DNA of 64,000 bases from Dehalogenimonas formicexedens (lineage in GTDB: Bacteria > Chloroflexota > Dehalococcoidia > Dehalococcoidales > Dehalococcoidaceae). A model generated the notes under the pieces. That model was not told where the DNA came from. It saw only the letters and a program-made list of their open reading frames with translations, and made no database searches. The translations under genes and the position numbers were made by a program. The stretch is taken from positions 1,144,210 to 1,208,209 of the forward strand of contig NZ_CP018258.1 in assembly GCF_001953175.1 (NCBI RefSeq), written 5' to 3'. Of the stretch, positions 27,547-34,500 are shown piece after piece (the stretch's first letter is position 1; the number at the start of each line of letters is the position of its first letter).

Positions 27547-27575
27547 TTGACCATAGAGGGCATTTAACGTATACT
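27547..27575 (+). promoter_or_regulatory. Promoter of the candidate selenoprotein gene
   Basis: TTGACC (27547-27552), exactly 17 nt, then TATACT (27570-27575). The heptamer ATACTAG occurs at 27571 and again at 27592, a possible operator pair. The transcript would start about 55 nt before the ATG at 27638. Confidence 0.6.
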
Positions 27576-27637
27576 AGTTGCGTGGTTGCGCATACTAGAG
27601 AGTATATCAAATCACCATATAGGGTAAGGGAGTAATG

Positions 27638-27988
27638 ATGGCTGAACTCAAGGTGAAGATCGTGGTACTTCCACAGGATGGCTGCGGCGGCGGTTGAAGC
27701 CCGGTGGGACAATCGTCGGAGACGATTGAAGCTATCAAGAAATTGGTTGACTCCAAAACGGGGACGGTTTCCGAGGTCGTCGATATCGAATCGATAGACA
27801 CTGAAGATGAAAACTACGCCCCGGTTGTTAAACTGTTTGATTCACACTCGATCTGGTCTTTGCCGGTTGTCTTTATCGATGGAAAAATAGTGTCATGGGG
27901 AACCTCGCGATTGGACCGCATCGAAAAATCGCTTGGGGAAATGTTCCCTGCCAGTAAAGAAACCGCGCCTTCAACAAGCCGGACGTAA
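27638..27988 (+). CDS. Candidate selenoprotein, thioredoxin-fold (UGA = selenocysteine at residue 20)
   Basis: Read through one in-frame TGA (27695-27697), this gives a 116-residue thioredoxin-like protein. The first beta strand 'KVKIVVLPQ' leads to an active site C16-GGG-U20-S, and a cis-proline loop 'SIWSLPVVFIDGKIVSWG' follows at about residues 75-92. The frame before and after TGA is the same, and the 19 codons before it already form the expected strand and Cys. AAGGGAG lies 5 nt before ATG 27638 (an ATG one codon earlier is possible). A hairpin 12 nt after TGA fits a bacterial SECIS. A gene finder would wrongly call only the part from GTG 27704. The DNA evidence is good; incorporation itself needs sel genes elsewhere in the genome. 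Confidence 0.75.
27710..27728 (+). promoter_or_regulatory. Bacterial SECIS-like hairpin
   Basis: CAATCGTC (27710-27717) pairs perfectly with GACGATTG (27721-27728) around GGA. The loop begins 20 nt after the TGA, inside the usual window for bacterial SECIS elements, and holds the GG typical of SelB-binding loops. Confidence 0.7.
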
Positions 27989-28201: not shown

Positions 28202-29008
28202 CTACACCTTGGGGTCGGGCACCGGTACGGCGGACAACAATGCCTGGGTGTATGGGTGAAGGGGCCGATCGTACAGCGCGTCGCGGGGCGCGATCTCCAT
28301 GATCTTGCCCAGGTACATCACCGCAACCCGGTGGCTGATATGCCTGACCACGGACAGGTCATGCGAAATAAACAGGTAGGCGACGCCGAATTGCCGCTGG
28401 AGGTCATCGAGCAGGTTCAGAACCTGCGCCTGGATAGAAACGTCGAGGGCGGATAATGGTTCGTCGCAGACGATGAATTCAGGCTGCAGCGCGAGCGCCC
28501 GTGCCACACCGAGCCTCTGCCGCTGTCCCCCGGAAAATTCGTGCGGATACCGTTCGGCCATATAGGGAGCCAAGCCCACAATGTCCAGGAGTTCTTTTAC
28601 CCTGTTGCGGCATTCCGTTTTCGTGGCATGGTGCAGCCTGAGGGGCTCGGTGATGATGTCGTAGGCGGTGAAGCGGGGATTCAAGGATTCATAGGGATCC
28701 TGGAAGATGACCTGGAGTTTCGGTCTAAACGGCCGCAATTGCTTGTCGGTCAGATCGACCAGGTTCTTACCCTTGAAACTGACTTCACCGGAGGTAGGAC
28801 GGTGGAGTTGGAGCACACATTTGCCTACGGTGGTCTTGCCGGATCCGGATTCCCCTACCAGGCCGAGCGTTTCCCCATGGTGAACGGCAAAAGTCACACC
28901 ATCAACCGCTTTAAGTTCGGTGACTTTTTTGCGTAAAAATCCTCCCGACCCAATCGGGAAATATTTAGTCAGGTTGTTGACTTCGACTAGGACGTTGTCT
29001 TTTGCCAA
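28202..29008 (-). CDS. Peptide ABC transporter ATP-binding protein, OppF/DppF type, truncated by in-frame TAG
   Basis: A 268-residue ABC ATPase with Walker A '[12 protein letters not shown]', the Q-loop '[14 protein letters not shown]', signature '[16 protein letters not shown]', Walker B '[12 protein letters not shown]' and H-loop '[14 protein letters not shown]'. All catalytic parts are intact, but the usual C-terminal ~60 residues lie after an in-frame amber codon. The start is TTG 29008, set by GGAG 7 nt upstream; it overlaps the end of the OppD-type gene by 22 nt. It pairs with the OppD-type ATPase to energise the OppBC channel. It is the last gene of the five-gene peptide transporter operon. 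Confidence 0.88.
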
Positions 29009-33959: not shown

Positions 33960-34500
33960 TGTATATTAGCACGCTTGTACCTTCCTGCCGCGGGAATCTG
34001 ATCCCGCCTACCAGCCGACGGTGCCTGTGATGAACATAACGGCACGTTTCTATGTCCTTTTTGGGATCGTGGATGACGGCTCCGGCGTCTGGACCGGGAT
34101 TCGTAATGGTTCGCCATCTAAAACGAATCTTACGATTGAGCCAAAGCTGTTTTTCAGGGATTCGTTTCGCAAAAAAGGTTTTTCGGAACGCCGAAAAACA
34201 AATGCCACCCGCCGCCTGCGCTAATCAGAACGAATTGTTCCGTTTGTTTTTCATGCCTATCGCCTTATTGGGAGTATTGGCAGTATTTCTAGCGGGCGAG
34301 ATTCGTTCCATTCGTTTTCGTATATATTACGGTTAGGGAAAGCGCTGAGTCGGCCTGCAAAGAATGAGGCAGGGACATGCTGGCGGTCCGTGGAACAGAA
34401 GTCTTTAGTACCATTTACTATGGTTAAACATACCTAAGTACCATTGTAAACCCGTGTCCCATCTGATACGTTTAAGGCAATATTCGACACATAGGATTGG
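33960..34500 (+). other. Long gene-poor stretch with hairpins; possible non-coding RNA or pilT leader
   Basis: No convincing protein gene is seen between the transporter promoter and pilT. The plus strand folds into GCGGGA/TCCCGC near 33990-34007 and GTGCC/GGCAC near 34020-34045. At about 34175-34200 a 9-bp repeat (GTTTTTCGG/CCGAAAAAC) followed on the minus strand by CTTTTTTG looks like a minus-strand terminator. The nonamer AGTACCATT occurs twice (34408 and 34437 region). A short ORF from GTG 34021 (67 codons, basic) has no support. Confidence 0.3.

Follow-up and report, generated by a model that had tools for sequence, protein, structure and literature searches.

Close to its start, a short gene of Dehalogenimonas formicexedens is interrupted by a TGA codon, which raises the question of whether this codon ends translation or is read as selenocysteine (Sec), and, in the latter case, what the resulting protein might do. 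The window analysed here, i.e. the whole stretch of DNA under study, comprises 64,000 nucleotides (positions 1144210-1208209) of the host genome, which consists of one contig of 2,092,789 bases. A preliminary description made from the sequence of this window had proposed a new thioredoxin-fold selenoprotein. Taking all lines of evidence together, we consider it likely that the gene encodes a genuine selenoprotein, which is ArsD-like and probably serves as an accessory in the handling of trivalent arsenic.

The local features of the gene (Table 1) all agreed with what had been described. One continuous frame of 116 residues runs from the ATG at 27638 to a TAA at 27986-27988 and is split by a single in-frame TGA. 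The proposed ribosome-binding site AAGGGAG ends 5 nt before this ATG and 2 nt before an alternative in-frame ATG at 27635. A standard gene caller reported only the shortened frame from GTG 27704 to 27988, as had been anticipated. The promoter postulated upstream was also found, although it is weak evidence alone because shuffling of the region gives 0.4 sites of this kind by expectation, as compared to the one seen.

Table 1. Features of the predicted selenoprotein gene, with positions given in the window and + denoting the forward strand.
Feature	Position	Strand	Basis
Predicted ArsD-like thioredoxin-fold selenoprotein gene, with read-through (Cys16, Sec20)	27638..27988	+	continuous frame, homologues; TAA included
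In-frame TGA, probable selenocysteine 20	27695..27697	+	TGA in 9/9 homologues, Cys in G382
Ribosome-binding site AAGGGAG	27626..27632	+	seen directly in sequence
Promoter-like site TTGACC-17-TATACT	27547..27575	+	1 found, 0.4 expected by chance
Putative bacterial SECIS hairpin, 8-bp stem CAATCGTC/GACGATTG, GGA loop	27710..27728	+	conservation; bSECIS model

The search of the host genome for selA, selB, selC and selD that the preliminary description had suggested found all of them at a single locus, with tRNA-Sec, selD, selA and selB lying inside 2056145-2061160. SelA was matched with an E-value of 4e-127, and tRNA-Sec scored 70 bits and carries the anticodon TCA. The selD gene has an in-frame TGA of its own near the start (SGUAAKIGPGDL; L015 1727-2779); SelD itself is probably a selenoprotein that is called shorter without read-through. 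Another in-frame TGA was found in the gene for the alpha subunit of formate dehydrogenase. A true selB was present in all eight Dehalogenimonas genomes but in none of three genomes of the sister genus, which are presumably Dehalococcoides judging from kinship, and which also lack the selenoprotein gene. Matches to selB in a whole-genome search of the sister genus were rejected, being below the cut-off and similar to EF-Tu-type GTPases. The selCDAB genes together with a Sec-containing FdnG have been described for all Dehalogenimonas analysed (PMC13390414).

Each of the seven other Dehalogenimonas genomes encoded a homologue whose frame contains a single TGA, and a paralogue, again with one TGA, was found in the host at 1436824-1437135 on the minus strand. 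The TGA occupied the same alignment column in all nine genes (the window gene, those of the seven genomes and the paralogue), and the homologues shared 39-53% identity with the window protein. Beyond the genus, profile searches across the class, the phylum and the order returned one close Cys homologue, restricted to Chloroflexota, and a few weak matches, of which those translated were ArsD proteins. The Cys homologue is encoded by G382, a genome of the same class, and reads SCCGPAVGQ where the family has SCUGPKGQ. It was recovered with an E-value of 6e-20 by a profile that did not contain the G382 sequence, and its locus includes ArsR- and ArsP-type genes. A G382 frame with a 'TAG inside' was rejected, as this TAG is the ordinary stop codon of the G382 gene. 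Scanning 84,980 genome records twice, a set from which near genomes were possibly excluded, revealed no further relative, and neither did the plasmid records searched.

At residue 20, for which a search for Cys in homologues had been recommended, all nine genes had the predicted Sec, while Cys stood at this place in G382 and, as Cys18, in ArsD. The active-site arrangement C16-GGG-U20 given in the preliminary description held for the window gene and for G003, its nearest orthologue, which are the only two genes with Cys at -4 (C-x3-U), and Cys16 is the sole cysteine of the window protein. It did not hold for the family, whose motif is instead the vicinal Cys-Sec pair SCUGP: Cys directly precedes Sec (SCUGP or GCUNP) in seven of the nine genes. 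A lack of sel genes together with homologues without Cys or Sec had been named as evidence against a selenoprotein; both points came out in favour of it.

The hairpin was found as described, with the stem CAATCGTC (27710-27717) and GACGATTG (27721-27728) starting 12 nt after the TGA and enclosing a GGA loop. Folding of the TGA region, another check that had been advised, reproduced this structure, but its stability was only mildly unusual given the base composition (z -1.53). The two strands of the window hold 2175 TGAs; such a hairpin followed 7 of them, 31 lay in frames capable of read-through and 2 combined both features; because of this and of the mild signal of the lone hairpin, the case for Sec rests on comparison. 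The sole other TGA that combines an 8-bp hairpin with a frame capable of read-through, at window position 34227 on the minus strand, is probably due to chance because its translation looks non-coding.

Across the family, CAATCGTC-GGA-GACGATTG was nucleotide-identical in eight of the nine genes. The ninth gene, the host paralogue, carries CAATCGTC-GTC-GACGATTG, i.e. the stem is kept and the loop changed from GGA to GUC. In every case the distance from the UGA to the start of the loop was exactly 20 nt, with minimum free energies (MFE) from -9.2 to -12.3 kcal/mol across all nine genes; the best fold of G007 had a stem of 7 bp instead of 8. A published model of bacterial SECIS elements (bSECIS) describes a loop of 3-9 nt with G within the first two positions (usually G[G/U]), a stem of 4-16 bp, a loop position 16-37 nt after the UGA and an MFE <= -7.5 (PMC13188914). 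All nine genes agreed with every one of these constraints (loop of 3 nt, stem of 8 bp or 7 bp in G007, GGA or GUC, distance of 20 nt). In gene pairs encoding the same residue, the codons under the hairpin were identical in 208 of 208 cases (100%), versus 631 of 1503 (42%) elsewhere, and 0 of 2000 shuffles reached the hairpin-codon identity (shuffle maximum 0.56). Since the stem is invariant in all nine genes, it provides no compensatory base-pair evidence; the excess synonymous conservation and the tolerated loop change nevertheless support a putative SECIS function. The hairpin sequence was confined to these genes among 41 genomes scanned, and the window hairpin had no meaningful match in Rfam. 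Such a hairpin was missing from the DNA of the G382 Cys homologue, as would be expected if it serves Sec. We regard the conservation of both TGA and hairpin in nine of nine homologous genes as the decisive evidence, and from these comparisons the UGA is almost certainly read as selenocysteine by means of the predicted SECIS hairpin.

Should the TGA be a real stop instead, the locus would represent either a decayed gene in two halves or a short working protein starting at GTG 27704. Gene callers do give 27704-27988 only, and the window gene lies apart from the usual operon. We nevertheless hold a real stop to be very improbable, because nine divergent genes share the same single TGA with a conserved upstream part, synonymous conservation is confined to the hairpin and the full Sec machinery is present; the decayed gene was accordingly rejected. 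Equally, the open frame itself is all that speaks for a UGA read through by a tryptophan code, a suppressor or a frameshift rather than as Sec. The presence of tRNA-Sec, SelA, SelB and SelD, the Cys that the G382 homologue has in this column and the agreement with the bSECIS constraints all argue against this, so that frameshift and alternative code were rejected and read-through of this kind appears practically negligible.

Regarding the protein itself, the description as thioredoxin-like with a cis-Pro loop agreed with the modelled fold, but the protein is ArsD-like rather than a generic thioredoxin. AlphaFold models (pLDDT 76 and 86) have a thioredoxin-like fold in which Sec is placed after the first strand and before the first helix, at the end of the first loop, and an invariant Leu-Pro precedes a strand at the cis-Pro loop position. 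Profile-profile comparison (hhalign) with three Chloroflexota ArsD sequences gave a probability of 96% and an E-value of 2e-9, with Sec aligned to ArsD Cys18. Sub-threshold matches were obtained to Pfam ArsD (PF06953) in six of ten members (best E 1e-5) and to NCBIfam ArsD (NF033727) in three members (best E 4e-5); the window protein reached 12.5 of 27 bits against Pfam ArsD, and no member attained the curated cut-off of the ArsD family models among the matches listed, which give bits for two members, the window protein being one of them. The profile scan also contained Thioredoxin_3 matches, and sequence searches of the PDB gave weak matches only. ArsD chains were the best Foldseek matches for the models. 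VIA-align Z against ArsD chains was 6.5-7.5, tied with other thioredoxin folds (best Z 7.5), and because all Z values were under 8 the fold match to ArsD was not used alone. The metalloid site of ArsD is formed by Cys12-Cys13-Cys18 (PMC6683785). The Cys12-Cys13 pair was missing from the family alignment, leaving only Sec at the Cys18 position, and because this site is not intact we term the protein ArsD-like and not an ArsD. A small thioredoxin-like fold and a relationship to ArsD are well supported, the ArsD type of this fold being probable.

Each of the seven other Dehalogenimonas genomes has the selenoprotein gene 8-23 nt downstream of acr3, which encodes an arsenite exporter and was identified in G001 with an E-value of 1e-139 and named from sequence similarity in the remaining genomes. 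Further genes of these loci encoded ArsP-type permeases, some of them present as separate half-length genes, along with an ArsR-type regulator. Both arsD and arsA occurred nearby in G004 and G007, the only genomes with arsA close by. The host paralogue likewise adjoins ArsP-type permeases. Two adjacent half-length ArsP-type genes were seen beside a full-length ArsP in L050 (2403-3439), L055 (2720-3780) and L057 (3769-4895), and such pairs might perhaps form a two-subunit transporter. The window gene is an orphan that lies apart from acr3 and no longer within an ars operon. The window gene is flanked by oligopeptide-transporter genes, and these also adjoin, tail to tail, the operon of G003; because of this shared flank we regard the window gene as the syntenic orthologue, split from acr3. 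The only acr3 of the host is found at 2087242 (L060 7174-8259; G000:C1 about 2087173-2088258), where it stands alone at the site of the full ars operon of G004 (selenoprotein, arsD, arsA), with similar flanking genes. As a separate observation, oppF, encoding the oligopeptide-transporter ATPase, has an in-frame TAG at window positions 28202-28204 (minus strand) in place of Glu in the G003 orthologue; about 60 further codons past the TAG are open and similar to that orthologue, and the TAG may be either a nonsense change or a sequencing error.

Selenolates bind trivalent arsenic strongly, which fits the location of the genes in arsenic loci. We infer metalloid handling as well as Sec insertion, and on balance favour an As(III)-handling role of the family, in which it assists the efflux system. 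SelB with Sec-tRNA would be recruited by the mRNA hairpin that follows the UGA, upon which the UGA would be decoded as selenocysteine. Sec would then sit where the first loop ends, usually within a vicinal Cys-Sec pair, and the soft, deprotonated selenolate and the neighbouring thiol might capture or relay As(III) or methylated As(III) and pass it on to Acr3 or ArsP. The host orthologue, separated from acr3, would act as a stand-alone gene, apparently with its own promoter. A more specific version, in which the protein is a Sec-based arsenic metallochaperone related to ArsD, whose Cys-Sec captures As(III) or methylarsenite for Acr3 or ArsP without an ArsA ATPase, appears less likely.

The main rival to metalloid handling is a genuine selenoprotein acting as a redox enzyme, i.e. 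a thioredoxin- or glutaredoxin-like reductase, and not as a metalloid carrier. Its Cys-Sec pair would cycle as a selenenylsulfide, for example in the reduction of arsenate or methylarsenate for the efflux pumps. The thioredoxin fold, the invariant Leu-Pro at the place of the cis-Pro loop and the Thioredoxin_3 matches would suit such an enzyme, and a redox function is presumed for the majority of selenoproteins in bacteria (PMC13188914). On the other hand, the closest profile relative, ArsD, is a binding protein, and neither the vicinal Cys-Sec nor the C-x3-U of the window protein is a CxxC-type motif. We therefore see the redox role as a credible possibility but not the expected one; the two roles are not exclusive.

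An apparently uncatalogued, genus-wide selenoprotein family is added to the organohalide-respiring Dehalogenimonas, and arsenic efflux would be linked to the use of selenium. Provided that the ArsD-like role is true, the protein would represent a selenol-based arsenic carrier. For the annotation of Dehalogenimonas genomes, we suggest that a TGA be read through when CAATCGTCGNNGACGATTG follows 12 nt later.

The arrangement had been noted as an unrecognised one, and indeed no catalogued family of ArsD type or with CxxxU was found. A catalogue from 2026, which covers 119 families of prokaryotic selenoproteins, has no ArsD-type or CxxxU entry in its family table (PMC13188914), and only SelD and formate dehydrogenase are named as Dehalogenimonas selenoproteins (PMC4918011, PMC13390414). 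Scans of all members with NCBIfam 20.0 and Pfam gave weak E-values only for any selenoprotein model, this sequence comparison covering the catalogue entries that have a model. Within this scope, the family was met with neither in selenoprotein catalogues and NCBIfam nor in Dehalogenimonas papers of the open literature, and an earlier description may exist elsewhere.

Among known systems, MTH895/ArsE (TIGR00412) is small and thioredoxin-like with weak similarity (E 0.016), the score of 15.6 of 62 bits being far below the cut-off. SA0789-type proteins (DUF1462, PF07315; 1xg8) have a similar predicted fold (Z 7.0-7.3), but only two members matched them in sequence, below the threshold. The organometal-linked SAO/Tso families (SaoT, SaoC, TsoC and others), reportedly described by Haft and Gwadz in 2023 and Haft and Tolstoy in 2025, are listed in PMC13188914. 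Some of these selenoproteins are believed to handle metals or metalloids, and the permeases neighbouring the ArsD-like selenoprotein genes resemble SaoE. However, in a comparison made via NCBIfam only, no SAO/Tso family model was over the cut-off (the best being TsoC, with E 0.07 in a single member), and motifs and gene sets differ. The Brachyspira proteins Sec.1 and Sec.2 (PF13192, 'redox-active disulfide protein 2') are also small and Thioredoxin_3-type with a bSECIS, but carry Sec as CxU or UxC ahead of the thioredoxin domain, within a short extension of the N-terminus, with no ars operon reported (PMC5330540), whereas here Sec follows the first strand in a CU or CxxxU motif. From ArsD (PF06953, NF033727; 3mwh, 3kgk, 3ktb) the family differs in that Sec replaces Cys18, the Cys12-Cys13 pair is missing and the window protein has no C-terminal Cys pairs; moreover, in most genomes its gene has acr3 and not arsA as neighbour, and G004 and G007 encode a true ArsD alongside it. 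With ArsD it shares size, a predicted thioredoxin-like fold, ars-operon location, a Cys/Sec-Gly-Pro element at the same place and profile similarity.
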